From assembly GCA_027485645.1 (NCBI GenBank), contig JAIXQR010000002.1:62001-126000 (forward strand): 64,000 nt of DNA, read 5' to 3'. Source of the DNA: a bacterium. GTDB taxonomy: Bacteria > Armatimonadota > Fimbriimonadia > Fimbriimonadales > Fimbriimonadaceae. A model generated the notes under the pieces. That model was not told the origin of the DNA. It searched no databases and was given only the letters and a program-made list of their open reading frames with translations. Below are positions 32,166-47,203 of this stretch, in pieces. The position numbers were made by a program, and so were the translations under genes. Each line of letters opens with the position of its first letter. The stretch's first letter is position 1.

Positions 32166-33395
32166 ATGACCGTTTATGAATATGAATGTCGGGACCGGGC
32201 GGGTGCAGTTGTCAAGGGACTGCTGCAAGCGAACAATCCGGAAGAGTTGCGGTCGTTGTTGCGCCAGAACGGCCTCTATCTGACCCAGTTTGAGCAGCGC
32301 GACAGCAAGCCCGAAACGGGACAGGGCGGCGGACTTATGGGTCCGAAGATGCCAAAGTCTTCCGAAGTCGTGGTTATTGCGCGACAGCTTGCTACGCTAG
32401 TTCGTTGCGGTATGCCGCTGACTCAAGGCATCGAAATCCTTTATGAACAGACCCAGAACGCGGTCATGAAGGAGATCCTTTCCGAAATTCAGGCGGGCAT
32501 TGTTTCGGGCGACAGTCTTTCTAACCAGTTCCGACGGTATCCGAAGGTGTTTCCGGAACTGCTCGTTTCGATGCTCGAAGCCGGCGAAGCGGCTGGAAAC
32601 CTCGACTTCTGTTTGGACATTGCCGCCGACCAGCTCGACCGGATGGAAGAGCTGAAGCGAAAGGTCAACGGAGCGATGGTTTATCCGAAGATCGTTGTTG
32701 CCGCCGCTTGTATTACGGTTGCGATCATGCTTTTGGTGGTTGTTCCGACCTTTGCTCAGGTTTATAAGGACCTTCGAGCCGAGTTGCCAACCGTCACCCA
32801 AACGCTCATCAACATCTCCAACGCGGTCATCAAGTACTGGTGGGTCGGCCTGATTCTCATGGGGCTTGCGTACTACGGATACAAGCGGTACGCCGAAACG
32901 CCAAATGGGAAGCGACGCCTTGACGAACTTTCGCTCAAGTTGCCACTGGTCGGCCCGATCATGCGAAAGGTTGCGATCGCTCGCTTTGTTCAGACCCTTG
33001 CGGGTTCGACCCGCGCAGGTGTTCCGGTTCTTCGAGCGCTTGCCGTGTCGGCCGGTGCTTCGGCAAACTCGGTGATTAAGGACGCTGTTATGACGGCGGC
33101 GAGCGCGGTTCGGGATGGAGCGGCTCTCGGGCCAGAGCTCGAAAAGACCAACGAGTTCCCTCCGATGGTTACTAAGATGGTTGCCGCCGGTGAGGCAAGT
33201 GGCGATCTTGACGCGATGCTGGACGAGGTCAACAAGTTCTACGAGCGAGACGTGGAGTACGCGGTTGAGAAGATGACGAAGATGATCGAGCCGATCATGA
33301 CTGGCGTCGTTGGTGCGATCGTTCTATTCGTCTTGCTTGCGTTGTATATGCCGATCTTTAGCCTCGGTAAGGCGTTCGAGAAGTCCGGCAAGTAA
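32166..33395 (+). CDS. pilC: Type IV pilus inner-membrane platform protein PilC
   Basis: A 409-aa GspF/PilC protein. It begins with YEYECRDRAGAVVKG, typical of the family, then two homologous cytoplasmic GspF domains. The first is around RQLATLVRCGMPLTQGIEIL, the second around RFVQTLAGSTRAGVPVLRAL. Three membrane helices lie at about 170-195, 222-240 and 375-400. It anchors the pilus motor and helps extract pilins from the membrane. It is translationally close to pilB (5-nt gap), and a weak hairpin follows before the pilin genes. Confidence 0.93.
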   Translation: MTVYEYECRDRAGAVVKGLLQANNPEELRSLLRQNGLYLTQFEQRDSKPETGQGGGLMGPKMPKSSEVVVIARQLATLVRCGMPLTQGIEILYEQTQNAVMKEILSEIQAGIVSGDSLSNQFRRYPKVFPELLVSMLEAGEAAGNLDFCLDIAADQLDRMEELKRKVNGAMVYPKIVVAAACITVAIMLLVVVPTFAQVYKDLRAELPTVTQTLINISNAVIKYWWVGLILMGLAYYGYKRYAETPNGKRRLDELSLKLPLVGPIMRKVAIARFVQTLAGSTRAGVPVLRALAVSAGASANSVIKDAVMTAASAVRDGAALGPELEKTNEFPPMVTKMVAAGEASGDLDAMLDEVNKFYERDVEYAVEKMTKMIEPIMTGVVGAIVLFVLLALYMPIFSLGKAFEKSGK

Positions 33396-33413
33396 CGCTG
33401 AAGGACCGTATCT

Positions 33414-33442
33414 GAAAAAAGGCGAAAGAAATTTCGCCTTCC
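33414..33442 (+). terminator. Weak terminator-like hairpin after pilC
   Basis: 9-bp stem (33419-33427 with 33432-33440), loop GAAA, no real U-tract. It may attenuate readthrough into the pilin genes. Confidence 0.45.
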
Positions 33443-33500
33443 AGCCTATATTCCAATTGCAGGGCAAACGTCTTTGCCTTACAATTTGACCAAGGTTGGT

Positions 33501-33902
33501 ATGAATTGCATTAAAAAGTGTTCCAGGGCTTTCACCTTGATTGAACTGCTCGTCGTGATCCTCGTCATGGGCATTCTCTTTTCAATTGCGCTACCTTCCT
33601 ATTTGTCCTCGGTGAAAGACGCACGCGAGAGAACGGCCAATTCTAATGCGCAAACGATTGCGATTACCGTTCAGGCGCTGTATGTTCGCACGGGAGGTTT
33701 GGCCTATAACCACTCCAGTATCACGGAAGCCGCCATCATCGGCGAGCTAGGGGGCAAGGTTCCGATCAATCCATGCACGGCCGGGCAGTCCTTATCCGTC
33801 GACTACAAGCTAGTTTTGAACGCAAGCACCGCCACAATGGCTCCGTTGCCGGGATCTCTGTGTGATTCGGCCGAGATGCGCTCTATCGTACTCACGCAAT
33901 AA
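33501..33902 (+). CDS. Type IV pilin-like protein 1 (divergent)
   Basis: A 133-aa prepilin starting at ATG 33501 (the frame extends to 33474). The signal is SRAFTLIELLVVILVMGILF, cut between A and F, followed by the N-terminal alpha helix SYLSSVKDARERTANSNA that is shared by all seven pilins in this stretch. The C-terminal half is divergent and has two cysteines (INPCTAG and GSLCDS) that likely form the terminal disulfide loop. It is the most distant member of the array. It follows pilC and its hairpin, and pilin 2 follows 50 nt after its stop. Confidence 0.85.
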   Translation: MNCIKKCSRAFTLIELLVVILVMGILFSIALPSYLSSVKDARERTANSNAQTIAITVQALYVRTGGLAYNHSSITEAAIIGELGGKVPINPCTAGQSLSVDYKLVLNASTATMAPLPGSLCDSAEMRSIVLTQ

Positions 33903-33922
33903 ACGTTCACCAATAAAATGCG

Positions 33923-33960
33923 ACACCCATTACCCTCGATTTGAGGGACACTATGGGTGT
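33923..33960 (+). promoter_or_regulatory. Hairpin able to hide the ribosome site and start codon of pilin 2
   Basis: ACACCCAT (33923-33930) and CCCTC (33933-33937) are complementary to GAGGG (33943-33947) and ATGGGTGT (33953-33960). GAGGG is the Shine-Dalgarno sequence, 5 nt before ATG 33953, and ATGGGTGT includes that ATG. So one nested stem could sequester both. No U-tract follows, arguing against a terminator. Confidence 0.6.
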
Positions 33961-34354
33961 GATGACGAAGTTTAGGCGCGCTTTTACCTTGATCGAACTC
34001 TTGGTCGTGGTGCTTATTCTTGGCATTTTGGTTGCGGTTGCCCTGCCGTCCTACCTTTCATCGGTCAAGGATTCCCGCCACAAGACGGCGAACGCGAACG
34101 CAAGGGCCGTTGCGACGGCGATTCAGGCGCTCTTCGTGAAAGTCGGCGGTACGGCATACAATGCGCCAGCCATCACGGACGCTAACATCACCTCCGAGCT
34201 GGGCGGTTCTATTCCGAGAAATCCATGCACCGGTGGATCATCTCTCACGACGGACTATGCCTTGACGCTGACAACGAACACCGCCACGTTGCGTCCAGCT
34301 GCTGGTTCAACCTGCGATGCATCGTCGCTTCCGGCGATCACCCTATCGAAGTAA
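33953..34354 (+). CDS. Type IV pilin-like protein 2 (divergent)
   Basis: A 133-aa prepilin. ATG 33953 has GAGGG 5 nt upstream; ATG 33962 is the alternative. The prepilin signal is RRAFTLIELLVVVLILGILV, then ALPSYLSSVKDSRHKTANAN, almost the same as pilins 3-7. The C-terminal region is more divergent and carries the two conserved cysteines (RNPCTGG and GSTCDA). It is intermediate between pilin 1 and the near-identical pilins 3-7. Translation may be controlled by the hairpin over its start. Confidence 0.88.
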   Translation: MGVMTKFRRAFTLIELLVVVLILGILVAVALPSYLSSVKDSRHKTANANARAVATAIQALFVKVGGTAYNAPAITDANITSELGGSIPRNPCTGGSSLTTDYALTLTTNTATLRPAAGSTCDASSLPAITLSK

Positions 34355-34458
34355 AGCAAGGCAGTTGCAAGCCTTTGGTTTCGAATCTGTAGGCGCAAAT
34401 GATGCAAGTAAAAATGCTGGCATTTTGTCGGGAATCCTTGGATTTTTTTCGTGAGTTT

Positions 34459-34479
34459 CCAACAAATGAAGTGTTCTTC
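34459..34479 (+). promoter_or_regulatory. Class A leader element, pilin 3
   Basis: CCAACAAATGAAGTGTTCTTC, 41 nt before the start codon; matches elements at 35130 and 35722 in sequence and distance. Promoter or regulator site; which is not known. Confidence 0.55.
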
Positions 34480-34520
34480 TTCGCAGCGCGAAAGGGTGAG
34501 GGAGCAACAGGAAACAGATC

Positions 34521-34913
34521 ATGAATAAGTCCAACAAGGCATTCACGCTCATCGAGCTTCTCGTCGTCGTTCTCATCCTCGGCATCTTGGTTGCCGTCGC
34601 TCTTCCTAGCTACCTTTCCTCGGTGAAAGATGCTCGACACAAGACCGCCAACGCAAACGCTAAGGCCATCGCAACTGCAGTCCAGGCTCTCTACACAAAG
34701 AGCAACGGAAAGTCTTACAGCGCGACCGACATCACCGCCTCGGCTATCACGGCTGAACTCGGCGGCACGGTTCCAACCAACCCTTGCACCGGCACGGCTA
34801 CGCTGACGGGCGATTACCAGTTGACTCAGTCCGCTTCTCAAGCCACGATTCAGCCTGCGGCTGGCTCGAACTGCACTGCCGGCGACCTCCCAACGATCAC
34901 TCTTTCGCAGTAG
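34521..34913 (+). CDS. Type IV pilin 3 of the tandem array
   Basis: A 130-aa prepilin: NKSNKAF then TLIELLVVVLILGILVAVAL, cleavage expected after Ala-6. The N-terminal helix carries SYLSSVKDARHKTANANAKA. The C-terminal domain is about 85 aa with cysteines at NPC and SNC forming a probable disulfide loop. It is closest to pilin 6: 164 of 165 nt match between 34629-34793 and 36482-36646. It has its own leader (class A) and terminator, so each pilin is a separate transcription unit. GAGCAACAGGAA lies just ahead of the start. Confidence 0.93.
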   Translation: MNKSNKAFTLIELLVVVLILGILVAVALPSYLSSVKDARHKTANANAKAIATAVQALYTKSNGKSYSATDITASAITAELGGTVPTNPCTGTATLTGDYQLTQSASQATIQPAAGSNCTAGDLPTITLSQ

Positions 34914-34937
34914 TCTCGAATAACTGCTCGTTGGCTT

Positions 34938-34967
34938 AAAGCCACCCCAGGAATCTGGGGTGGCTTT
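34938..34967 (+). terminator. Terminator after pilin 3
   Basis: Perfect 13-bp stem (34938-34950 with 34955-34967), loop GAAT. It ends in TTT. Confidence 0.8.
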
Positions 34968-35129
34968 AACTTTGGTTCAGGACGCAAATGTCGGTACGTT
35001 GGCGATGGAATGATAAAGGCCGCCTATCTAAATCGGCGACCGTGGACAGGCAACGAGGGATCGAAGGTCACCCGACGGGTTGCGGACATCGATGTTTTTT
35101 GAAAATGACTGAAATTTATTGCGAACGGG

Positions 35130-35150
35130 CCAATAACATCAACGTTCTTC
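35130..35150 (+). promoter_or_regulatory. Class A leader element, pilin 4
   Basis: CCAATAACATCAACGTTCTTC, 41 nt before ATG 35192. Confidence 0.55.
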
Positions 35151-35191
35151 ATTGAAAAGTTTGGTCTTCGGTGAGCAACAGGAATTCAGTC

Positions 35192-35584
35192 ATGAATAAG
35201 TCCAACAAGGCATTTACGCTCATCGAGCTTCTCGTCGTCGTTCTCATCCTCGGTATCTTGGTTGCGGTCGCTCTTCCTAGCTATCTCTCCTCCGTGAAGG
35301 ACGCTCGACACAAGACGGCCAACGCAAACGCTAAGGCCATCGCAACCGCAGTTCAGGCACTTTACGTGAAGAGCAACGGTAAGTCGTACAGCACCACCGA
35401 TATTCCGGCGTCCGACATCACCACCGAACTTGGTGGAACGATTCCAAACAACCCTTGTACGGGAGCAGCTTCGCTCACCACTGACTACACTTTGACGCAG
35501 TCCGCAAGCTCCGCAACGATCAAGCCAGCTGCTGGCAGCAACTGCACTGCAGGCGATCTTCCAACGATCACCTTAACTCAGTAA
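35192..35584 (+). CDS. Type IV pilin 4 of the tandem array
   Basis: A 130-aa prepilin with the same N-terminal signal and helix as pilin 3. ATG 35192 is preferred over the frame start at 35171 because it matches its siblings and follows CAACAGGAATTCAGTC. Variable residues lie in the C-terminal half (e.g. SYSTTDIPASDITTELGG, PNNPC), with the same two-cysteine loop. Coding sequence groups with pilins 5 and 7 (YVKSNGK), leader with 3 and 5. Confidence 0.93.
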   Translation: MNKSNKAFTLIELLVVVLILGILVAVALPSYLSSVKDARHKTANANAKAIATAVQALYVKSNGKSYSTTDIPASDITTELGGTIPNNPCTGAASLTTDYTLTQSASSATIKPAAGSNCTAGDLPTITLTQ

Positions 35585-35611
35585 GGTTTCCGTTTCCAAG
35601 GCTCGTACTTC

Positions 35612-35643
35612 GGCCACCCCAGGCTCCCTGGGGTGGCCTTTTA
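35612..35643 (+). terminator. Terminator after pilin 4
   Basis: Perfect 12-bp stem (35612-35623 with 35627-35638), loop CTC, then TTTT. Confidence 0.88.
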
Positions 35644-35721
35644 TTGTTTGTATAGGTCATTGCAATTCACTCGCAGGATTACTGGCATTTAGTTTTAGGT
35701 ATGGAATTGTTATGAAAATGA

Positions 35722-35742
35722 CCAATAACGTTAGTGTTCTTC
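35722..35742 (+). promoter_or_regulatory. Class A leader element, pilin 5
   Basis: CCAATAACGTTAGTGTTCTTC, 40 nt before ATG 35783. Confidence 0.55.
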
Positions 35743-35782
35743 AGTGCGATACACGCGGCTGAGGGAGCAACTGGAATCAGCC

Positions 35783-36175
35783 ATGAACAAGTCTAATAAA
35801 GCATTTACGCTCATCGAACTTCTCGTCGTCGTTCTCATCCTCGGCATCTTGGTTGCCGTTGCTCTTCCTAGCTACCTTTCTTCGGTAAAGGATGCTCGAC
35901 ACAAGACCGCCAACGCAAACGCTAAGGCGATCGCGACTGCAGTCCAGGCTCTCTACGTGAAGAGCAACGGAAAGTCGTACAGCTCGACCGACATCACCGC
36001 ATCGGCTATCACGGCTGAACTTGGTGGAACGATTCCGGTCAACCCTTGCACCGGCGCTGCTTCGCTCACCACGGATTACACGCTCACCCAAGCTGCCGCT
36101 ACCGCAACGATCAAGCCAGCGGCTGGCAGCAACTGCACCGCAGGCGATCTTCCAACGATCACCCTCTCGCAGTAG
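35783..36175 (+). CDS. Type IV pilin 5 of the tandem array
   Basis: A 130-aa prepilin with the shared signal and N-terminal helix; start ATG 35783 by comparison with siblings (the frame runs to 35744). C-terminal half: SYSSTDITASAITAELGG, IPVNPC and the second Cys in GSNCTAG. It follows a class A leader with GAGCAACTGGAATCAGCC before the start, and ends in its own terminator. Confidence 0.93.
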   Translation: MNKSNKAFTLIELLVVVLILGILVAVALPSYLSSVKDARHKTANANAKAIATAVQALYVKSNGKSYSSTDITASAITAELGGTIPVNPCTGAASLTTDYTLTQAAATATIKPAAGSNCTAGDLPTITLSQ

Positions 36176-36189
36176 GATCTCTTAGGCTT

Positions 36190-36223
36190 CGGCCCGGATG
36201 GCGATTGCCATCCGGGCCGTTTT
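36190..36223 (+). terminator. Terminator after pilin 5
   Basis: Perfect 13-bp stem (36190-36202 with 36207-36219), loop GATT, then TTTT. Confidence 0.9.
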
Positions 36224-36260
36224 GCGTTTGTCCCGTGGAAGCGTTGTAACACGATTCGAT

Positions 36261-36301
36261 TACCCAAAAGGTGTCATTGCGCGTAAAGAGATTCTGATAA
36301 A
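36261..36301 (+). promoter_or_regulatory. Class B leader block, pilin 6
   Basis: TACCCAAAAGGTGTCATTGCG (21 nt, 36261-36281, of which I cite the start only as TACCC and the end as TTGCG) then GATTCTGATAAA from 36290. The same two parts, 29 nt apart, precede pilin 7. It ends 72 nt before the start codon. Confidence 0.55.
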
Positions 36302-36373
36302 AAATACATCTCGTAGTCCGGTTCAGCATTTGGATTAATTGCCAAATAGGAACCAAGAATTTCGAGCAAAAAC

Positions 36374-36766
36374 ATGAACAAGTCTAACAAAGCTTTCACG
36401 CTCATCGAACTCCTCGTCGTCGTTCTCATCCTCGGCATCTTGGTTGCCGTCGCTCTTCCTAGCTACCTCTCCTCGGTAAAGGATGCTCGACACAAGACCG
36501 CCAACGCAAACGCTAAGGCCATCGCAACTGCAGTCCAGGCTCTCTACACAAAGAGCAACGGAAAGTCTTACAGCGCGACGGACATCACCGCCTCGGCTAT
36601 CACGGCTGAACTCGGCGGCACGGTTCCAACCAACCCTTGCACCGGCGCAGCTTCGCTCACGACCGACTACAACTTGACTCAGACCGCTTCTCAAGCCACG
36701 ATTCAGCCTGCGGCTGGCTCGAACTGCACGGCCGGCGATCTGCCTGTCATCACCCTCGCTCAGTAA
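36374..36766 (+). CDS. Type IV pilin 6 of the tandem array
   Basis: A 130-aa prepilin with the shared signal and helix. Its middle region is almost the same as pilin 3 at DNA level (one mismatch in 165 nt, including the YTKSNGK block that other members lack), while its leader is the other class. After NPCTG the two diverge again (AASLTTDYNLTQ against TATLTGDYQLTQ). This mosaic pattern is the clearest sign of recombination in the array. Its own terminator follows. Confidence 0.93.
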   Translation: MNKSNKAFTLIELLVVVLILGILVAVALPSYLSSVKDARHKTANANAKAIATAVQALYTKSNGKSYSATDITASAITAELGGTVPTNPCTGAASLTTDYNLTQTASQATIQPAAGSNCTAGDLPVITLAQ

Positions 36767-36785
36767 GAGCGGAACACGCTCTCCG

Positions 36786-36818
36786 CGCCCGTCCAGCACC
36801 AGCTGGGCGGGCGTTTTT
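36786..36818 (+). terminator. Terminator after pilin 6
   Basis: 12-bp stem with one T-G wobble (36786-36797 with 36802-36813), loop ACCA, then TTTTT. Confidence 0.9.
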
Positions 36819-36849
36819 CTTGCCTCAATCTGGCGTCACACAAACCGAG

Positions 36850-36890
36850 TACCCGGAAGGTGTCCTTGCGATTATTCGGATTCTGATAAA
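36850..36890 (+). promoter_or_regulatory. Class B leader block, pilin 7
   Basis: TACCCGGAAGG...TTGCG then GATTCTGATAAA, with the same internal spacing as at 36261 and 71 nt from the start codon. Possibly a promoter plus regulator site. Confidence 0.55.
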
Positions 36891-36961
36891 CACTAATGAA
36901 TGAAAACGGGCGCACTAAAGGAAACTCATTCTGAGTAAGTCCGCTGGTTTAGGATCATAAA

Positions 36962-37354
36962 ATGAACAAGTCAAACAAAGCCTTCACTCTTATTGAGCTC
37001 CTCGTCGTCGTTCTCATCCTCGGCATCTTGGTTGCCGTCGCTCTTCCTAGCTACCTTTCTTCGGTGAAGGACGCTCGACACAAGACCGCCAATGCAAACG
37101 CCAAGGCCATCGCAACTGCAGTTCAGGCTCTTTACGTGAAGAGCAACGGAAAGTCGTACAGCTCGACCGACATCACGACCGCAGCGATCACGACTGAACT
37201 CGGCGGCACGATTCCAACCAACCCTTGCACCGGCGCGGCTTCGCTCGCTACGGATTACACCTTCACCCAGTCTGCAGCTACCGCAACGATCAAGCCAGCT
37301 GCTGGCAGCAACTGCACCGCAGGCGACCTGCCAACCATCACTCTTCAGCAGTAA
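36962..37354 (+). CDS. Type IV pilin 7 of the tandem array
   Basis: A 130-aa prepilin with the shared signal and helix; variable C-terminal half with SYSSTDITTAAITTELGG and the two cysteines. It groups with pilins 4 and 5 in coding sequence and with pilin 6 in leader. It is the last pilin before the assembly genes, with a strong terminator between, so pilM expression is separate. Confidence 0.93.
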   Translation: MNKSNKAFTLIELLVVVLILGILVAVALPSYLSSVKDARHKTANANAKAIATAVQALYVKSNGKSYSSTDITTAAITTELGGTIPTNPCTGAASLATDYTFTQSAATATIKPAAGSNCTAGDLPTITLQQ

Positions 37355-37382
37355 GCGTAAGGCTGACGACGATTCACGATCC

Positions 37383-37417
37383 GGCGGCGAGGCAATGCCT
37401 CGCCGCCCATTTTTTTG
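37383..37417 (+). terminator. Terminator after pilin 7
   Basis: Perfect 11-bp stem (37383-37393 with 37397-37407), loop AAT, followed by CAT and seven T. Confidence 0.92.
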
Positions 37418-37418
37418 T

Positions 37419-37646
37419 CTAAGGATGCCAGTGACGTCCTTCGACGGGTTGAAAGTTCTGATAATTTGCCCTTCGGGCGGCGCGTGGCCCTACCGAAATT
37501 GGATCCGACAGCCAATAACCTCTGTGTAGACAATGCGTGTCTGCCTGAATCGGTCTGGCGTGCCTCGGCAGCTTGATTGACCGGGAGCTAAGGATGGCTT
37601 TTGGGATGGCAGACCGACGGGTCAGAAACACGGACGTACCAAGAAT
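37419..37646 (+). promoter_or_regulatory. Long leader of the pilMNOQ operon with several hairpins
   Basis: A 228-nt non-coding stretch between the last pilin terminator and pilM. It contains GCCC-TTC-GGGC (37468-37478), AGACA-ATGCG-TGTCT (37528-37542) and a long-range perfect 8-bp pairing TCGGTCTG (37550-37557) with CAGACCGA (37610-37617). Riboswitch-like or promoter-containing leader; no known class recognised. Confidence 0.35.
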
Positions 37647-39320
37647 ATGGCCTTTAATCGCGGACGTAATCGCAATTACGTAGGAATTGAAATCACGGAT
37701 TCTGAGATCCGTGGTGTAAACGTCCGTCATACCGGCAACCGATCCCAGGTCACGGCTCACGCCATTCTCCAAATCGAGCCTGGACTCGTTAGCGGTGGGT
37801 TCATTCAAGACCCCGGCTTGATCGGTCAAGCCCTTAAAAAGCTTTCTGAACGCTTGAAAGTCGACAACAGCACGCGGGTCAGCATTGCTGTCCCCGACGC
37901 ACGCGTTTCGACTTACCGAATCTCCGTTCCTGCGGTTGCCGGCACCGACCTGAAGACGATCGTCGACGGGGAAGTTGCCCACTACCACCTCGTTGAAGAC
38001 CAGGGCACTTACGGCTTCTTCAAGCTTCGGTCGCCGAACAGTCAGGCGGTTGACGAAGTTCCGGTCTTGATCGCAGCGACCCACAGCAGTACGGTGCTTC
38101 ACCTTCAGGAAGCATGCGAATCGCAGAATCTGTATCTGGTTTCGCTGGAACCTGCCCAGTTTGCTCGCCTCCGCGCCCTCGTTCCGTTCCTCGCCCACGA
38201 AGAGTCGGTGGTTGTGCTCAACTTCCACGAAACGTCGGCGGACTTAACGCTGCTGGTTAAGGGAGAACTGTGGTTCTACCGATCGCTGAACGTTGGTGCA
38301 AACTTGCTCGTCTCGGACACCGAGGACGGCCGCCTAGATTTAAACGATGCGAGAATTGATGAACTCGCGATTGATATTCGGCGCTCGGTGGACTACTTCG
38401 AGCGAGAATTTGATGTTTCTGCCCTGCCACGCCGCATGCTCGTCACCAGTGTGACGGAACGGATGGCTACTTTCTTGGAGCCGATTGCAACCCGGCTTGA
38501 TATTGAATTACGTTGGACTGACGCGTTCTCGACTTGGCTCGGTGACAAGTCGAATAACTACGACCCGGACGAGACCGTCGTGCGGGCATTCGTGCCGAAC
38601 TCTCCCGTAGAAAGCGTCCCACAAGGCGCGCTGTCTTATAACACGGCCTACGGAATCGCCCTGATGGATCGGGCAGACCTCGCGATTGGTGCGCCGCGGG
38701 TCGAAATCTATAAGCGTGATTTTGCGCTTGAGCAGAAGAAAGACACCCAGCGCAACCTTTTGGGAAGCGTGCTGGTTTCTATCGGCGCCCTCGCGGTTGG
38801 TCTCGGAGGTTGGCTCTTTGGTAGCTACCAGGTTAACGAGCTTCAGCGGCAAACCGAAGACACCAAGAAGCGGGCGCAAAATATCCGTGAGCAAGCCGAA
38901 CTCGCTGACCGAACCGTTCGGCGCTTGGTTCAGCAGGCAGACCTGCTAAGGAAGGATGGCCTTCCCGCGGTATCCGTGATCGACGAAATTTCTCGAAGCG
39001 CTCCGCTCGGCATCGGACTGAAGTCGATCGATGTAAGCCAAGAACAGAATGTGACCATTGAAGGGATCACGAACGAAGAAAGCTACATCGTGGATATGGT
39101 CCGCCGCCTCCAGCTCGGCAAGGCAGTGGTCAATCCGACCATCGCCGGAATCGAACGAAAGAAGGACGAGAACACGAGCTTTATTGAGTTCAAGATCAGC
39201 GCCCGAACTTACAATCTTTCGGAAGTTGAGTATGCCGGAAAGCCCCAGCCAGTTGTGCCGGCGGTTGACCCTACGATAGACCCGAAGACGCAAGTGCCAA
39301 CCCCAGTAGGAGGACAATAA
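37647..39320 (+). CDS. pilM: PilM-PilN fusion protein
   Basis: A 557-aa protein in which an actin-like PilM domain is joined to PilN. Residues 1 to about 345 show the PilM pattern: NYVGIEITDSEIRGV, GFIQDPGLIGQALKKL, VSIAVPDARVSTYRI, then VVVLNFHETSADLTLL, and SVDYFEREFD. Residues about 370-393 form a membrane helix (NLLGSVLVSIGALAVGLGGW), followed by a coiled coil and a ferredoxin-like PilN domain. In most type IV pilus systems these are separate proteins, with PilM binding the N-terminal tail of PilN, so fusion would hold the complex in fixed 1:1 ratio. The short normal PilN tail (about 350-370) is visible between the domains. Confidence 0.85.
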   Translation: MAFNRGRNRNYVGIEITDSEIRGVNVRHTGNRSQVTAHAILQIEPGLVSGGFIQDPGLIGQALKKLSERLKVDNSTRVSIAVPDARVSTYRISVPAVAGTDLKTIVDGEVAHYHLVEDQGTYGFFKLRSPNSQAVDEVPVLIAATHSSTVLHLQEACESQNLYLVSLEPAQFARLRALVPFLAHEESVVVLNFHETSADLTLLVKGELWFYRSLNVGANLLVSDTEDGRLDLNDARIDELAIDIRRSVDYFEREFDVSALPRRMLVTSVTERMATFLEPIATRLDIELRWTDAFSTWLGDKSNNYDPDETVVRAFVPNSPVESVPQGALSYNTAYGIALMDRADLAIGAPRVEIYKRDFALEQKKDTQRNLLGSVLVSIGALAVGLGGWLFGSYQVNELQRQTEDTKKRAQNIREQAELADRTVRRLVQQADLLRKDGLPAVSVIDEISRSAPLGIGLKSIDVSQEQNVTIEGITNEESYIVDMVRRLQLGKAVVNPTIAGIERKKDENTSFIEFKISARTYNLSEVEYAGKPQPVVPAVDPTIDPKTQVPTPVGGQ

Positions 39321-39321
39321 A

Positions 39322-39906
39322 ATGCAATCCAGAATCTTAGGTTGGTTGCTGCCAGTCATCTGCATCGTCGCCGCGACCGTTGCTCTGATCATTCAATTTG
39401 GTCGGGTTATTGGCGCGCAGCTGAACTTTGCCAAGGCAGATGAAGAGGTTAAGAAGGCCATCGCGCTTAACAGCAAATCGAAGGACATCACGCAATACCA
39501 GCGCCGGATTGGACCGATGGATGGCCCGACGGAAGAGACTCGATTTGTTTCAGATTTGAACACGATCGCAAAGATTCACAACGTGACTTTGCTCAAGTTG
39601 AGTTCACGAGCTCAGGCATTTGGGGCGGGAGTCCTGGATAGTCGAGGGTACCGGTATACGCTGGACGATGATAAGACTTTGACCGGCGTGAAGAAGATTT
39701 ATGCGGAACTTAGCGTTGGCGGAAGCTATGCTAATATTCGCGCGTTTTTGCGAGACTTTGAAAATTCGCAAAGAATGTACACAATAAGTAATGTCAAGTG
39801 GAGCCGAACGGATTCGGCTACTGAGCTTGGCGTAGTTCTGGCGCGATACGTTCTGATGAACGTGCCGCTTGCAGAAGAGTCAGCGGAACAAACCAAGGAA
39901 GGGTAA
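39322..39906 (+). CDS. pilO: PilO-like alignment subcomplex protein
   Basis: A 194-aa inner-membrane protein with one N-terminal helix (about 5-26, GWLLPVICIVAATVALII), a coiled coil, and a small alpha/beta domain including VGGSYANIRAFLRDFENSQRMYTISNVKW, which is the PilO/GspM-type ferredoxin-like fold. It pairs with PilN in the periplasm. AGGAGG 6 nt before ATG and a 1-nt gap after pilM-N show tight coupling. Sequence similarity to PilO is structural rather than by motif, so the assignment rests on order and topology. Confidence 0.85.
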   Translation: MQSRILGWLLPVICIVAATVALIIQFGRVIGAQLNFAKADEEVKKAIALNSKSKDITQYQRRIGPMDGPTEETRFVSDLNTIAKIHNVTLLKLSSRAQAFGAGVLDSRGYRYTLDDDKTLTGVKKIYAELSVGGSYANIRAFLRDFENSQRMYTISNVKWSRTDSATELGVVLARYVLMNVPLAEESAEQTKEG

Positions 39907-39908
39907 TC

Positions 39909-41762
39909 ATGAGTCACAGTGCAATTGCGTTAGGAATCTCTCTGCTGGGAGGAACCCCGGTTCCATCTCCAGCGGCCGTCGAACCACAAGTTGCAGACGT
40001 TACGTCTGCAGCGGCGTCGAATAGAACCGGCGCAGTGTCCGGCGTAGGTCAACTGCCTGTCCGACTTTCGTTCACGGATACGACCGTTCCGTCCGTCTTC
40101 CGCGCATTGGCGGCCAGACTTGGCGTGAACATCGTTTACGCGGGCAAAGATCGAACTCCGATTACGCTAACAATCATCGCTAACTCTGCTGACGAAGCTG
40201 TCCGCGCTGCCGTTTCTGCTGCTGGTCTCACCTTCCGCCGCACGCAGAACACGTTCGTGGTCGCTGGACTCGACGAGATGAAGCGCGCCCTCGAGCCATT
40301 TTCCTTCCGGGCTCGATTCCAGGTCGATCCGGCCAAGGCTACCGAAATTTCCAAAGCGCTTGAAACCGCATTTCCGCAGGCAAGCGTAACCGCGATCGGT
40401 GACAAGATCGTCTTCTACGGAATTCAGGAAGACCTGAAGGAAGCGAAGCAGTACATCGACGACTTCTCGGGAGAGACACAAACGACCGCCGCTCGAGCCG
40501 TTGAGGTTTATTCGGTCCGAGGTGACGTGAGCCGAATCGTCGCTCAGATGGGAACGCTGTTCCCAGATGTCATCGTGACGGCGAATGGATCGATCGTGAC
40601 GCTCACGGGGACCACGGAACGAGTAACTGCGGCAAAGGCGGCCATCGAAAAGCTGGATAAGGCGGTTGACCCGATGGATTCGGGCATCGTTACCGAGGTT
40701 TACGAGTCGAAGTACATCACGAGTGGTCCCCTCCAGCGATTCCTGAAGGAGTCCATGAAGGACGTCGACGTCTTCGTGGCGCCGCGAGCCTACTCGCCAG
40801 AGCGCGGACTCTTCTCGCCAATCAGCTCGCGAATCTCGCAGCAAGATCAAGGCGGCGGTGGCGGAGGACAGCAGCAGCAACAGGCTGCTCCGGCTTTGGG
40901 CGGTCAGCAAGCCGGTGGTCAGGATCTTGAGCAGCTACAGCGCGCTTCGACCGAACAGGGACGTCGGCTCGTCGTCCGTGGTCCGAAAGCCCGCGTGATG
41001 GAAGCGATTCGATTGCTGGAAGCCATCGACGTTCGCCCGCCACAGGTCACGGTAGACGTGAACGTGGTCGAGACCACGCCAAACTTCAGCTCGAATCTCG
41101 GCAATACGTTTAACTGGCAGCCGCTTCAGTTCTTGGAAGTGCCAAACGGCACCGTTGCAGACCTTACGACTTTCAACAACCTGAACACCACTAAACCCGC
41201 AGGTCTTGGCCAGATTTCGCGAATGCCTGGCTCGCTCACTGCGACCCTTTCGGCACAGATCACCCAAGGAAACGCGAAGATCCTCGCGAACCCACGAGTT
41301 CAGGTGATGGACAACGACAGCGCAAGCGTCTTCATCGGCGACACGCTACGAGTTCGAATCGCGACGGCGGGCGCGTTGGGTGCGCAGACGATTGAAGTTC
41401 TTGAGTTCCCGGTAGGCATCATCTTGCTGCTGAGACCAAGAATCAATCCAGACGGCACGATCACGATGCACGTTAATCCGGCGGTCAGCACGATTCGAAG
41501 CATCGACTCCAACGGTCTGCCTCAGACCAGCACGCGAGAAGCGGAGACCACCGTGGTTGTGAACGATGGCGAAACCGTGGTGCTCGGTGGCTTGATCCGA
41601 GACGAGCAGTCGGAGACCCTGACGAAGTTCCCCATCCTGGGCGATCTGCCTTTGATCGGAGAATTGTTCAAAAACCGTACGAAATCCAAGCGAAGGACCG
41701 ATATTGTAGTAACGATTACGCCTCGCATCATGAATGATGCGAAGCCCGGGACTCCAAGATGA
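39909..41762 (+). CDS. pilQ: Type IV pilus secretin
   Basis: The outer-membrane pore for the pilus, 617 aa. N-terminal secretin/TonB-like short domain (LSFTDTTVPSVFRALAARLG), then two N-domains with the VYSVRGDVSRIVAQM and VYESKYITSG patterns. A glycine/glutamine-rich linker lies at about 315-340, then the secretin core with VDVNVVETTPNFSSNLGN, ILANPRVQVMDN and a C-terminal VVVNDGETVVLGGLIRDEQ and IPILGDLP-like FPILGDLPLIGELF. A conventional N-terminal signal is weak (ALGISLLGG). Its presence shows a diderm envelope. It overlaps the next gene by 4 nt. Confidence 0.92.
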   Translation: MSHSAIALGISLLGGTPVPSPAAVEPQVADVTSAAASNRTGAVSGVGQLPVRLSFTDTTVPSVFRALAARLGVNIVYAGKDRTPITLTIIANSADEAVRAAVSAAGLTFRRTQNTFVVAGLDEMKRALEPFSFRARFQVDPAKATEISKALETAFPQASVTAIGDKIVFYGIQEDLKEAKQYIDDFSGETQTTAARAVEVYSVRGDVSRIVAQMGTLFPDVIVTANGSIVTLTGTTERVTAAKAAIEKLDKAVDPMDSGIVTEVYESKYITSGPLQRFLKESMKDVDVFVAPRAYSPERGLFSPISSRISQQDQGGGGGGQQQQQAAPALGGQQAGGQDLEQLQRASTEQGRRLVVRGPKARVMEAIRLLEAIDVRPPQVTVDVNVVETTPNFSSNLGNTFNWQPLQFLEVPNGTVADLTTFNNLNTTKPAGLGQISRMPGSLTATLSAQITQGNAKILANPRVQVMDNDSASVFIGDTLRVRIATAGALGAQTIEVLEFPVGIILLLRPRINPDGTITMHVNPAVSTIRSIDSNGLPQTSTREAETTVVVNDGETVVLGGLIRDEQSETLTKFPILGDLPLIGELFKNRTKSKRRTDIVVTITPRIMNDAKPGTPR

Positions 41763-42385: not shown

Positions 42386-43593
42386 GCAATTCGTTCAATC
42401 TGAAACACGCTGACGTCAAAGACGTTTTCGTTCATCTTGATCGCGAGCAGACCTTCTGGGCGTGGCTCGCGATCAACCGAAATCTGAGCGATTGCCGAGC
42501 GAGCGCCGCCCAAGACGATGTTCTCCATCTCCTGAACATTGAGCCCCTCGTCCTTCAAAACCGAGAGCACGTGGGCAAGAACGCCGACCCGGTCTAGGTG
42601 TCGAACCACGACGACGTGAGTTGCGACTTCGGCACGCTTCACGTTGACCACGTTTGGAACGCCGCCCTTACTACGGTACTCGCGCACGATCTGAACGACT
42701 TCATGGGCAATCGCCTCCTGGGCTTGCTCCGTACTGGCTCCAATATGGTGGGTGCAGTAGACGCCCGGCAAGTTTTGCAGCGCACCCGAATAGCTGCCCG
42801 TTCCCCCGCTCGGCTCACCTTCAAACACATCAAGCCCGGCGCGGACGCCTCGCTCGGTAACCGCTTTGAGAAGAGCGTCTTGGACGACGACTTCGGCACG
42901 GCTGGTGTTGATGAAGATCGCGCCTCGGCGAAGTTTGTCGAAGAATGCGTGGTCCAGCGAGCCCCGCGTTTCTGGCGTAAGGGCAACGTGAACAGAAATG
43001 ACGTCGGCCATGAGCGCGACCTCGGTCGCGTTGCTGGCTCGACCAATTTGGAGTCCGGCGGCAAGATCAGGAGTCATCCAGCGGCTGTAAGCCACGACGT
43101 TCATTCCGAATGCCTTAGCCCGAACCACCATTTCCTGGGCGATTTTTCCAATGCCGATCACGCCGAAGGTTCGGCCATGAAGTCCACGAGCTTTGGAGTA
43201 TTCGGTCTTGTTCCAAACGCCTTGATTCAGGTCAGAAACGTTCTCCGGAATTCGGCGGTCGCAGGCTAAGATCAGTCCCCAAGCAAGTTCAGCGACGGCT
43301 TGAGAGTTCTTTCCGGGACAGTTCGTAACCAGGATGCCAAGTTCGCTTGCGGCATCGATATCGATGGTGTTGTAACCGGCTCCGGCTCGGATCACGAGCC
43401 CAAGCTTGGTGTTTCGCATCGCTTCGCCCGGAACCTCCGTGCTGCGAACGACCAAAACTGCCGCCTCGCTCTCTCGCAGACGATCGGCAAGGGCCGCTCC
43501 AGCGAGCGAAGGTTCGTAGATGACCTCCACGCCGAGACGGCGCAAACCGTCTAGCCCGATTTCTTCGAACCGATCCGCAACAAGAACCTTCAC
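42382..43593 (-). CDS. serA: D-3-phosphoglycerate dehydrogenase-like enzyme with ACT domain
   Basis: A 403-aa D-2-hydroxyacid dehydrogenase. Features: AGAGYNTIDIDAASELGILV, the NAD loop GVIGIGKIAQ, the catalytic set (arginine in INTSRAEVV, glutamate in VFEGEP, histidine in CTHHIGAST), and a C-terminal ACT domain (about 330-403). It lacks the intervening domain of long SerA. 3-phosphoglycerate dehydrogenase for serine synthesis is most likely; other hydroxyacids cannot be excluded. It converges with the pilus operon with a 4-nt overlap. Confidence 0.85.
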   Translation of the reverse strand: MKVLVADRFEEIGLDGLRRLGVEVIYEPSLAGAALADRLRESEAAVLVVRSTEVPGEAMRNTKLGLVIRAGAGYNTIDIDAASELGILVTNCPGKNSQAVAELAWGLILACDRRIPENVSDLNQGVWNKTEYSKARGLHGRTFGVIGIGKIAQEMVVRAKAFGMNVVAYSRWMTPDLAAGLQIGRASNATEVALMADVISVHVALTPETRGSLDHAFFDKLRRGAIFINTSRAEVVVQDALLKAVTERGVRAGLDVFEGEPSGGTGSYSGALQNLPGVYCTHHIGASTEQAQEAIAHEVVQIVREYRSKGGVPNVVNVKRAEVATHVVVVRHLDRVGVLAHVLSVLKDEGLNVQEMENIVLGGARSAIAQISVDREPRPEGLLAIKMNENVFDVSVFQIERIA

Positions 43594-43652
43594 GCCTTAA
43601 GATTAGCAGTTAAGGGGGTACGAGATTGAACGCGGTACACTCTTCTTCCCAA

Positions 43653-43737
43653 GCCGGGGTGGCGGAATGGTAGACGCGGCGGTCTCAAAAACCGTTGACC
43701 ACAAATCGTGCGGGTTCGAGTCCCGCCCCCGGCACCA
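43653..43737 (+). tRNA. tRNA-Leu (anticodon CAA)
   Basis: The acceptor stem GCCGGGG pairs with CCCCGGC, followed by discriminator A and encoded CCA (43735-43737). The anticodon loop CTCAAAA gives CAA. A long class II variable arm (around TGACCACAAATCGTG) and TTCGAGTC in the T arm are as expected for leucine tRNA. TACACT at 43636 is a plausible -10. Confidence 0.95.
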
Positions 43738-43743
43738 CTCTTC

Positions 43744-44376
43744 CTATTTCGCCAAGACGCCCTTGGCAGATCCCCACGGCAGAACGATTGCTTTCCCGTA
43801 TCCGCCGACCACTGCGGGATGCTTCTCCGCGAGTGCCGCGACCTTCGCCTTGTCGTTTCCAGGAACGATAAACGCGTCGATGTATTTGAAATCTCCGGCA
43901 ATCGGGCCCGAAACAAGCGTTGTGCCGACCCCCTTCATGTAAAGCGAGCGCTGGGAAGAGAAGCTCTTCGGCGTGAAGTTCACGCGCTCAATGAGCACCA
44001 TCGTGTTTGTCACAAGCTCCATCGGCTCTGCGGGCTTGCCGTACTTGACTGGATCGATCGCCCAAGGATAGACCTCGGCGGCGAGTCGGCCCGCCATCAC
44101 GGCCGGGTCTGCCATCGGAGCCATCTTGGCTAGCTCCATGTTTTTGGCTTCGATCAGCACGATGCCGCGGATGCGCTGGTCTTCCATAAACGGTCCCGCG
44201 ACTTTGGCCGTGCCGGCATTGTAAAGCTTGGTGAGGTGGGCCATGTGCCCGTCCTGAATCTCCTTTGACCGCTCAGCGGAGTACGTCGGTGCGTTGTCGG
44301 GTCGGACCAACAGGATGAGGAACGTTGATTTTTCTTGCGTCATGCTGAGCGCCGCCACGAGAACTGGAAGAAACAT
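43744..44376 (-). CDS. Secreted protein with two YCII-like domains
   Basis: A 210-aa protein. After a short hydrophobic N-terminus (MFLPVLVAALS) comes a YCII-like domain with the family pattern FLILLVRPDNAP...HMAHLTKLYNAGTAKVAGPF, then a second, weaker copy from VLIERVNFTPKS. YCII proteins have a ferredoxin-like fold and unknown or minor enzyme roles. The possible signal peptide suggests export, which is unusual for YCII. Its stop is 7 nt from the tRNA end on the other strand. Confidence 0.65.
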   Translation of the reverse strand: MFLPVLVAALSMTQEKSTFLILLVRPDNAPTYSAERSKEIQDGHMAHLTKLYNAGTAKVAGPFMEDQRIRGIVLIEAKNMELAKMAPMADPAVMAGRLAAEVYPWAIDPVKYGKPAEPMELVTNTMVLIERVNFTPKSFSSQRSLYMKGVGTTLVSGPIAGDFKYIDAFIVPGNDKAKVAALAEKHPAVVGGYGKAIVLPWGSAKGVLAK

Positions 44377-44431
44377 ATCACCAGTGTGCGACTTTTTCTG
44401 GCAAAGCGCAAATTCCTTAGGTCGTTGGATT

Positions 44432-44449
44432 TTGAGAAACGTTTCTCAA
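44432..44449. promoter_or_regulatory. Perfect 18-bp palindrome, LacI-family-like operator
   Basis: TTGAGAAACGTTTCTCAA, with a central CG and 9-bp arms as in LacI/GalR/CcpA-type operators, 14 nt before ATG 44464. Likely the repressor site for the glycosidase gene. The regulator gene is not in the window. Confidence 0.7.
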
Positions 44450-44463
44450 CGTAGAATGTATCC

Positions 44464-45717
44464 ATGTTAACGTCGTTGTTAGCCCTTACGATCTTGGGTG
44501 CGCCGGTAATGCAAGGAAGCAAAGTTGAACTCCGCACGACCGCAAACGGAACCGTTCTGTACCGGAATGGGCAACCGTATTGGATCAAGGGTGCAGGCTG
44601 CAGCTCATCCGACGACCTGAATCTCAAACGGCTCGCCGACGCGGGCGGGAACTCGATTCGGACCTGGGGCACCGGCGACGACACACCTGGGCTGCTCGAC
44701 CGAGCGCATAAAAATGGGCTCAGCGTCACCGTGGGCTACTGGCTCGGTCACGTTGCTCACGGGTTCAAGTGGAACGATCAGAAGCAGCTAGACGACCAGT
44801 TCGAAAAGGTCCGGGAGATGGTGCGGAAATACAAGAACCATCCTGCCGTTCTGATGTGGGCGCTTGGAAACGAGATGGAGACCGGGGGCAACGATAATCC
44901 GGTGCTTTGGAAGGAGATCGGTCGCCTCGCGAAGATGGTGAAAGAGGAAGACCCCAACCATCCGATCACAACCGTTGTGGCAGAAGTGAGTGCGGAGAAG
45001 GCGAAAATGATCGCCGAGTATGCGCCGGACGTACAGTTGCTCGGAGTGAATTCGTACGGTGGACTGCCGACGCTCCCTAAGCGATTGAAGGAGTTCGGCT
45101 GGAAGAAGCCGTTCATGGTCACCGAGTTTGGTCCGATGGGGCAGTGGGAAGTCGCGAAGACGGACTGGAACGTCGCCCTGGAGCCGACAAGCACCCAGAA
45201 AGCCGATCTGTATAAGAAAAACTACGAAGAGCGGATCAAATCGAACGCCGGCTGGTGCTTGGGTTCCTATGCATTCATTTGGGGATTCAAGCAAGAAGAA
45301 ACCGCAACTTGGTTTGGAATGCAGTTGCCGACGGGCGAGTCGCTTCAGTCCGCGGAGGAAATGCAGAAGCAGTGGAGCGGAAAGGCGCCGAAGAACCTCG
45401 CGCCGAGGATTGAAACGCCTGCCTTGCTGCCCGCGATGAAAGCGAAGATTGGCGACAAGCTGACCTTCAGCGTTCCGGCGATGGACCTTGACGGCGACAC
45501 GTTGGAGTACGAGTTCATCGTGATGTTGGAATCCAAGGACAAGAAGCCGGGTGGCTACCCACAGGCTGCGCCGCCAACGATTTCAACCGTCAAGCAGAAG
45601 GCCAGTAAGTACATCTTCACCGTTCCGCCGTATGTCGGTGAGTACCGGGTCTATGCGTTTGTGCGGGACGGAAAAGGGAACGCGGCGACGGCAAACTTGC
45701 CGTTCCTCGTTCACTGA
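44464..45717 (+). CDS. Exported glycoside hydrolase-like protein (GH2/GH5 TIM barrel)
   Basis: A 417-aa protein with a signal peptide (MLTSLLALTILGAPVMQG). A TIM barrel follows with the LYRNGQPYWIKGAG lead-in, an acid/base glutamate in WALGNEMETGG and a nucleophile candidate in MVTEFGPMG, which fits GH2/GH5 clan A retaining enzymes. The last about 90 residues form an immunoglobulin-like domain (LTFSVPAMDLDGDTLEYEF). Substrate unknown. It is expressed as a single gene, and the palindrome just upstream suggests sugar-responsive repression. Confidence 0.82.
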   Translation: MLTSLLALTILGAPVMQGSKVELRTTANGTVLYRNGQPYWIKGAGCSSSDDLNLKRLADAGGNSIRTWGTGDDTPGLLDRAHKNGLSVTVGYWLGHVAHGFKWNDQKQLDDQFEKVREMVRKYKNHPAVLMWALGNEMETGGNDNPVLWKEIGRLAKMVKEEDPNHPITTVVAEVSAEKAKMIAEYAPDVQLLGVNSYGGLPTLPKRLKEFGWKKPFMVTEFGPMGQWEVAKTDWNVALEPTSTQKADLYKKNYEERIKSNAGWCLGSYAFIWGFKQEETATWFGMQLPTGESLQSAEEMQKQWSGKAPKNLAPRIETPALLPAMKAKIGDKLTFSVPAMDLDGDTLEYEFIVMLESKDKKPGGYPQAAPPTISTVKQKASKYIFTVPPYVGEYRVYAFVRDGKGNAATANLPFLVH

Positions 45718-45721
45718 CTTT

Positions 45722-46300
45722 TCAGTTTTCAGCTTCTGATGGAGCATCCGGGTTGCCGCCAAGGCCCCGGATGCCATCAACCAAAGCTTCACCCGCATTC
45801 GTAAAGTGGTTTTGAACCTCGCCCGGCTGCGGGCTCGTTTCGTCGGGGAGAAGGCTTCGCAATTCGTTGATCACGCCGTCCGCGTCTCCAAGGTCGAGTT
45901 GCGCTTCTTCGAAGGCCCGAATTCCTGCTAGCCGATGTTCATCCTGCACGGCGAACTCCTTTTCGATCTCTGACTTCTCTGGCACGACGGTGAAGTCGCC
46001 AAGGGTTCGGGCGACGCTGTCGATGATGTCCAAGAGGTCGATCACCGCTTCCTGAATATCCTTCTTTGGGTTTGCTTTGAGAGCCTGGAGGATGTCCCGC
46101 GCCTGTTCTAGCTCGGTGATCGTGATGTCAGCTTGCACGGAGCCCACGCGCAGTTGCTCATAGAGCTTTTGCGGCGGTTCGACCGTCGGCTCGGTACTGA
46201 CCTTCTTTGGCTCAGGTTTTGGCTGGCAACTGGATGTGCCTAGCCCGAGCGTTGCAGCGACGAGCAGAAGGGCAATCGGAGTGGCAAAGCGCAGTCGCAT
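45722..46300 (-). CDS. Putative lipoprotein with helical domain
   Basis: A 192-aa protein with a lipobox (LGTSSC) after a hydrophobic signal, a proline/lysine/glutamate-rich linker, and a mainly helical domain (ELEQARDILQALKANPKK..., VIDLLDIIDSVARTL). No family recognised. ATG 46300 chosen; the GTG one codon earlier is possible. It converges with the glycosidase gene. Confidence 0.65.
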   Translation of the reverse strand: MRLRFATPIALLLVAATLGLGTSSCQPKPEPKKVSTEPTVEPPQKLYEQLRVGSVQADITITELEQARDILQALKANPKKDIQEAVIDLLDIIDSVARTLGDFTVVPEKSEIEKEFAVQDEHRLAGIRAFEEAQLDLGDADGVINELRSLLPDETSPQPGEVQNHFTNAGEALVDGIRGLGGNPDAPSEAEN

Positions 46301-46333
46301 CACGTTAGGCTACCAAAGCGTATAACTGTAAAC

Positions 46334-47203
46334 ATGCTTGCTGCCCTTTTTGTTCTTGCCCAGGCGGAAACACCTTACGTTTTGAACATCGGTCGCCCGG
46401 GACAAATGAAGTTTGCGCCGGGAGCAATTTACAGCACCGAGACCGGGCAGGAGGCGACGGTTTCCGAGATTGCGGCCGAGGCGGCGAAGCGCGGATTCCT
46501 CTACTTAGGCGAGCAGCACGCGACGGCACCGCATCAGCAGCTTCAAGCTGATCTCGTCAAGGCACTCGTCGACGCGAAGCAGCCCACCATGGTCGGCGTC
46601 GAAATGCTCACGCGACCTACCCAGCCCGGACTTACCGATTTCATCGCCGGGAAAGGGGACGAAGCGAGCTTTCTAACTGCCGTCGATTGGAAGACCACCT
46701 GGGGATTTGACTACAAGTTTTATCGCCCGCTGTTCCAAACCTGCCGAGACAACCGCGTTCCAATGGTCGCGCTCAACGTTCCGCGCACCTGGGTTCGTGC
46801 GGTTGGCCGTCTGGGCTATGCCGGCCTCGCGCCCACCGAAAGGAAAGATCTTCCTACCGAGCTGTACCTTGGGAACAAGCAACACCGGCAAGTTTTTGAC
46901 GCCCTCATGGGCGGTCACACCATGCCGAACGGCAATGAGAACGTCTATGCCGCGCAAGTTTTGTGGGACGAGGGAATGGCGGACACTGCGCTCAAAGCGC
47001 TTCAGGGACAGGTTCCGACCACTACAACGGTAATCGTCGCCGGGGCCGGGCACATCATGTACGGCCAGGGGATTAACTACCGAATCACTCGGCGAACCGG
47101 CAAGCGCGGAGTCAACGTGGTGATGATTAGCTCGGATAAACCGGTCACCTGCGCACGCGGGATTGCGGACTATGTGTACGTCAGCGAGCAGCCTGGGCAA
47201 TAG
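46334..47203 (+). CDS. ChaN-like protein (DUF399 family)
   Basis: A 289-aa protein of the ChaN/heme-binding uptake family. Recognisable features are LYLGEQHATAPHQQLQADLVKAL (the G-E-x-H motif), VGVEMLTRPTQPGLTDF and a late IVAGAGHIMYGQGI with a conserved histidine. Campylobacter ChaN binds heme and is a lipoprotein; this one has a short hydrophobic N-terminus (MLAALFVLAQA) and no lipobox. A role in iron or heme handling is possible but not shown. Confidence 0.8.
   Translation: MLAALFVLAQAETPYVLNIGRPGQMKFAPGAIYSTETGQEATVSEIAAEAAKRGFLYLGEQHATAPHQQLQADLVKALVDAKQPTMVGVEMLTRPTQPGLTDFIAGKGDEASFLTAVDWKTTWGFDYKFYRPLFQTCRDNRVPMVALNVPRTWVRAVGRLGYAGLAPTERKDLPTELYLGNKQHRQVFDALMGGHTMPNGNENVYAAQVLWDEGMADTALKALQGQVPTTTTVIVAGAGHIMYGQGINYRITRRTGKRGVNVVMISSDKPVTCARGIADYVYVSEQPGQ

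Follow-up and report, generated by a model that had tools for sequence, protein, structure and literature searches.

The present analysis points to a local LacI-family repressor that would govern beta-1,3-glucan use in this bacterium, a member of the Fimbriimonas group (Armatimonadota). The perfect 18-bp palindrome TTGAGAAACGTTTCTCAA is, with a probability of roughly 0.8, the operator of this repressor, which is most likely encoded on contig C5 and would control the GH158-family gene directly behind the palindrome, a gene for a GH81 enzyme with CBM6, and the repressor's own operon of lacI and a prepilin-like gene. The same switch seems to control a pilus-like protein. The site, its copies, its targets and its conservation come from sequence comparison across the window (the whole 64,000-nucleotide stretch analyzed, C4:62001-126000), the genome that contains it (G000; 3,187,320 bases, 7 contigs) and related genomes.

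The palindrome and the gene behind it

The original prediction described a flawless 18-bp palindrome with a central CG, 14 nt before a start codon, and both its self-complementarity and its coordinates were confirmed, the spacer at 44450-44463 separating it by 14 nt from the ATG at 44464 (Table 1). Operators of local LacI-family regulons are defined as even palindromes of 16-22 bp with a central CG (PMC4052901), a form that TTGAGAAACGTTTCTCAA shares and that has been reported for 1173 of 1303 LacI-family regulators (Ravcheev et al., 2014; PMC4052901). No other perfect palindrome of at least 18 bp occurs in the window. Its perfection by itself is little proof, since 0.44 such palindromes are expected per window by chance (100 Markov simulations with the window's dinucleotide make-up). 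However, none of 100 dinucleotide shuffles of the window contained the motif at up to three mismatches, and it is the recurrence and placement of TTGAGAAACGTTTCTCAA, genome-wide and before a LacI-family gene, that raise it above chance.

Table 1. Features surrounding the putative operator (window positions)
Feature	Position	Strand	Basis
YCII-domain protein, divergent neighbor; left bound of the regulatory region	43744..44376	-	PF03795, E 2.7e-7
Putative operator TTGAGAAACGTTTCTCAA, perfect 18-bp palindrome, central CG	44432-44449	.	Recurs in G000; 18/18 in G014
Candidate -10 element TAGAAT, 6 nt before ATG	44452..44457	+	By eye; CGTAGAATG identical in G014
GH158-family endo-beta-1,3-glucanase-like protein, 417 aa, hydrophobic N-terminus	44464..45717	+	PDB matches, catalytic residues

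The window enzyme matched two PDB entries over nearly its full length, namely 9oro (GH158; E 4.4e-89, residues 17-416) and 6pal (E 6.6e-57, residues 24-416), the latter being BuGH158, an endo-beta-1,3-glucanase with catalytic residues N136, E137, and E220 (PMC7157763). N136/E137 and E221 of the window enzyme align with these residues. Judged by this full-length homology to characterized members and by its catalytic N-E and E residues, the enzyme is a member of GH158, an endo-beta-1,3-glucanase family; Pfam recognized a GH2-type barrel piece alone. The protein is putatively secreted, as its N-terminus is hydrophobic by eye. The GH158 gene has a type II secretion or type IV pilus-like locus a few kb away, at 32166-41762 of the window; this comprises a PilC/GspF-like gene (judged by eye), a tandem series of short prepilins at about 33516-37045, and a secretin at 39909-41762. 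On the same side, a tRNA gene at 43653-43734 (+) separates a 2-hydroxyacid dehydrogenase from the YCII gene, and it was the only match to RNA families at 43500-46500.

Copies of the site and its likely targets

A genome-wide search for the palindrome had been proposed as a check, and it returned further copies at a LacI-family gene and at a second beta-1,3-glucanase-type gene. At up to three mismatches, TTGAGAAACGTTTCTCAA occurs four times in G000, twice perfectly, against one occurrence of the reversed control. The second perfect copy, at C6:166740 (L106 9740), falls within codons 4 to 10 of a gene whose 1296-aa product carries a GH81 C-terminal domain and CBM6. The variant TTGAGAAACGTTTCGCGA is found on C5, 18 nt ahead of the start of G000:C5:7918-8946(-), which encodes LacI and Peripla_BP domains, so that this regulator has the target half-site upstream of its own gene. 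The remaining copy, at C2:15991 (L003 1501) with two mismatches, sits inside an unrelated coding region and has no counterpart in the sister genome G014. The 10-bp core GAAACGTTTC occurs six times in G000; beyond the four copies above, it is found at C6:193874 (L107 7870), with no evident glycan gene, and within AATCGAAACGTTTCGATT before a related lacI on C6. With 11 LacI-family genes in addition to these copies, the genome is the reverse of one with neither LacI-family genes nor other copies, the outcome that was to count against an operator. The GH81 site lies inside the first codons both in G000 (C6:166740) and in G014 (L109 8325); sites within coding regions make up under 1% of LacI-family sites (PMC4052901).

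The targets identify the probable glycan. A regulon for glycan use had been envisaged, and this can now be narrowed to beta-1,3-glucan, because the sites are found at GH158 and GH81 in G000 and at GH16 in relatives (G024, G010, G002, and G008), several targets of one pathway. The core site is absent at the only GH1 gene of G000 and at its nearest ABC transporter gene; therefore uptake would not be co-controlled here.

Conservation across genomes

In G014, whose GH158 is 93% identical, the palindrome is kept at 18 of 18 positions together with CGTAGAATG behind it, whereas the left-hand sequence has diverged. The GH81 and lacI sites of G014 are kept with one and two mismatches, respectively, and beyond these three that genome has no site at up to two mismatches. 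The 41 genomes compared (our own and 40 relatives) contain 22 full-length GH158 genes, 10 of them preceded by a site that scores >15 on a matrix trained on sites from the very genomes scored; the other 12, including the 60%-identical GH158 of G011, have none. Such retention in the sister genome and at these ten genes is consistent with the conservation of local LacI regulons. An exact search of 113 genomes of the class placed the 18-mer at four loci (reversed control, 0): at GH158 and GH81 in G000, at GH158 in G014, and before the GH158 of G101, a genome from a different genus of the same family.

Searching 20 genomes of the genus for the pattern GMGAAACGTTTCKC turned up 26 sites, spread over 10 of them; the reversed control had 3. 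Twenty of the 26 lie at lacI, GH158, GH81, or GH16 genes, counting a prepilin of G006 that precedes GH158. Of the others, one is at a stand-alone prepilin (G009), one at a GntR-type regulator with a prepilin next in line (G006), and one within the coding sequence of a GH1 gene (G009); three are unexplained, at a chemotaxis receptor (G012), an FAD enzyme (G008), and a contig edge (G016).

Sites were also found at the repressor genes themselves. Upstream sites scoring >15 precede 13 of 24 LacI relatives, 10 of which also have another, strong or weak site that overlaps the first at a 12-bp offset, as exemplified by TTGAGAAACGTTTCGCGAAACGTTTCTCAA in G012. Such pairs are the autoregulatory sites before lacI at L038 and L039, and in G012 and G002 they form perfect 30-bp palindromes. 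The overlapping double site was considered as a novelty and dropped, as sites about 13 bp apart have already been described upstream of 110 operons (PMC4052901). In a second collection, the 15 best matches, mostly labeled Fimbriimonadaceae or Armatimonadetes, all have a site, of which 13 score >16 and the other two 14.1 and 10.9, vs. 2 of 64 unrelated LacI loci scoring >15; the same set of short peptide patterns had retrieved these unrelated loci, and L187, an Armatimonadetes locus that has a prepilin but lacks the operator, was removed from this outgroup before the count of 64. The two collections overlap, such that L125 is the G011 contig and the L132 repressor is that of G010, and those rows are not independent; L130, labeled Accumulibacter, is probably mis-binned. 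The lacI and GH158 genes are divergent in seven loci (L113, L114, L115, L127, L128, L129, and L133), and in these related genera the operators lie between the two genes, in a locus that also has ABC transporter and GH1 genes. In L113, L114, L127, L128, L129, and L133, the later genes of the repressor operon encode a fused binding-protein/permease, another permease, and a GH1 enzyme; the L133 operon has no prepilin.

A prepilin-like partner of the repressor

The C5 lacI overlaps the next gene, which encodes a 288-aa prepilin-like protein with an N-terminal cleavage/methylation motif (PF07963, TIGR02532). At E 0.001 this protein matched PF07963 alone and not the Pfam family DUF1559 (PF07596), which does match the G009 prepilin under the operator. 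G000 encodes 73 prepilin-type N-termini, and a survey of the neighbors of 71 of them found a prepilin-like gene directly after lacI, on the same strand, at 7 of the 11 lacI genes (L013, L005, L008, L010, L011, L012, and L014, on C5, C6, C1, and C3), for which the hypergeometric chance is 1.5e-9 on an assumed, uncounted total of 2900 genes. Two further prepilins follow GntR-type regulators, recognized by eye from the N-terminus (C6:615264 and C3:230476). Other lacI genes of G000 have distinct candidate operators, with a repeated GGTCAAATGTTTGAGCA before the L015 gene and ATATAACC[GT]TATAT before the lacI of L010 and L012.

This association extends to the relatives. A prepilin lies within 400 nt downstream in 20 of 30 LacI relatives and in 12 of the 13 that bear the operator, the exception being G009; in the second collection it accompanies 14 of 15 lacI loci vs. 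0 of 64 unrelated ones. The regulon-associated prepilins form one clade (13 of 70 tree rows, support 100), the group having been named before tree building from identity and context, and the only G000 member among the tree prepilins is the one adjoining the C5 lacI. In G006, a prepilin of this clade stands away from lacI, preceded at about 150 nt by TCGCGAAACGTTTCGCAA and followed by GH158, and in G009, where lacI has no prepilin, TTGCGAAACGTTTCGCAA immediately precedes a stand-alone prepilin that falls in another clade. Because of these two cases, the comparison suggests that the prepilin is linked to the operator as well as to lacI.

The structural model of the C5 prepilin (pLDDT 86, 69 sequences) shows weak likeness to type IV pilins, with a best Z of 5.0. 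All seven rows listed by VIA-align were type IV pilins, Foldseek gave no match at E 0.001, and the matches listed by the two programs included no carbohydrate-binding fold. The protein may serve in glucan capture, in surface sensing, or in enzyme delivery by a pilus-like fiber. More broadly, we tentatively propose, at a little short of even odds, that a glycan-specific LacI repressor and its own prepilin-like protein constitute a standard two-gene module of the Fimbriimonadales, in which the prepilin would be core to the glycan response and its subfamilies would mark glycan specificity, as SusD-like proteins do in Bacteroidetes. This proposal derives from the frequency of the pair within G000 and among its operator-bearing relatives, the contrast between the second collection and the unrelated loci, the single prepilin clade, and the G006 case.

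Identity of the repressor

Two paralogs in G000 are candidates for binding the palindrome. An alternative to C5 is that the C6 paralog (G000:C6:612705-613712) is the repressor, or that both paralogs share the site; this is unlikely, perhaps one chance in a handful, and would leave operator and regulon unchanged. A tree of 33 LacI proteins places the C6 paralog together with GH158-linked repressors from other genera (97/95), and the paralog's own site, AATCGAAACGTTTCGATT, has the identical 10-bp core. However, the outer bases are unlike (AATC vs. TTGA), the C6 half-site being AATCGAAACG, whereas the half-site TTGAGAAACG is common to the window palindrome and to the sites at GH81 and the C5 lacI. 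Further, of the two partner prepilins, that of C5 falls in the 13-row clade (support 100) seen with GH158-linked repressors, and that of C6 falls outside it. The C5 repressor had also been considered as a direct ortholog of the GH158-linked repressors, which the tree does not bear out. The C5 gene is thus favored as the probable repressor on account of its site and prepilin partner, against the LacI tree.

The other readings have far less in their favor. A global CcpA-type catabolite regulator in place of a local one would also recognize a LacI-family core with a central CG, and the C5 protein does score with the ccpA model; however, this score is far below the cut-off, only four sites at up to three mismatches exist in the genome, and their recognizable targets belong to one pathway, which makes this reading very improbable. 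Slightly less credible still is an RNA hairpin or transcription terminator. In G099 (L259, about 1489-1530), a copy of the palindrome with one mismatch does sit in a longer hairpin followed by six T and looks like a terminator, for which reason it was left out of the operator support, but no terminator-like site was found at 44300-44600, no T run stands behind the window palindrome, the left neighbor is transcribed away from it, and the palindrome recurs ahead of genes. That the palindrome is a functionless product of chance, as the simulated expectation might allow, is equally hard to credit given an identical copy at a second glucanase gene, a G014 site kept amid diverged flanks, and a GH158 site in another genus. 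The original prediction of a LacI-type operator is accordingly upheld as a putative assignment by the copies, the site before a LacI-family gene, and the conservation.

Promoter and proposed mechanism

TAGAAT, 2 nt behind the palindrome, may act as the -10 element, in which case the mRNA would start at or next to the ATG and be leaderless or nearly so; a scan of 44300-44600 for consensus sigma-70 promoters returned none. At most other targets a -10-like hexamer, again judged by eye, directly precedes the operator, which would therefore cover the transcription start. The resulting model, in which binding, repression, and inducer are deduced, as is the choice of C5 over C6, proposes that without inducer a repressor dimer would sit on the palindrome, overlap the promoter upstream of GH158, and block transcription. 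The inducer, judging from the targets, would be beta-1,3-gluco-oligosaccharides, upon whose binding the repressor would be released. Release would then lead to joint induction of GH158, the GH81+CBM6 enzyme, and the repressor's own operon of lacI and the prepilin-like gene.

Comparison with known systems

No report of a LacI-prepilin pair or of LacI regulation in Fimbriimonas was found in open-access literature listings, nor was a description of a glycan circuit in Fimbriimonas found in the open-access literature; operator and regulon provide a concrete, testable one. In its even central-CG palindrome, autoregulation (reported for more than three-fourths of local LacI-family regulators), confinement to one pathway, and overlapping double sites, the system resembles local LacI regulons (PMC4052901). 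It differs in the spacing of its double sites (12 bp and not about 13), in having the GH81 site within the opening codons of the gene, and in the overlap between the repressor gene and that for a prepilin-like protein; the main text of that study makes no mention of glucan, laminarin, Armatimonadota, or pilin. The 1,3GUL of Bacteroides uniformis similarly co-regulates GH158 and GH16 enzymes for beta-1,3-glucan, but through a hybrid two-component system and with SusC/D-type outer-membrane uptake (PMC7157763), whereas here a LacI repressor, scattered genes, and a prepilin-like protein would be involved, and an ABC transporter and GH1 are linked in other genera only.

With its operator and regulon, the system adds one more instance to the well-known local LacI regulation; the new part is the dedicated prepilin. 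In Planctomycetes, DUF1559 or prepilin-type H-X9-DG proteins form very many paralogs per genome with no known role (PMC10632474, PMC2754498, PMC5352709), and G000 likewise encodes very many prepilin-type paralogs, the G009 prepilin even matching DUF1559. Unlike these families, the C5 prepilin falls below the DUF1559 model and is tied to one glycan regulon. Because families of this type are large and lack a known role (PMC10632474, PMC2754498), the prepilin partner matters more than the operator itself: with one clade tied to one sugar regulon, the function of such a protein becomes directly testable.
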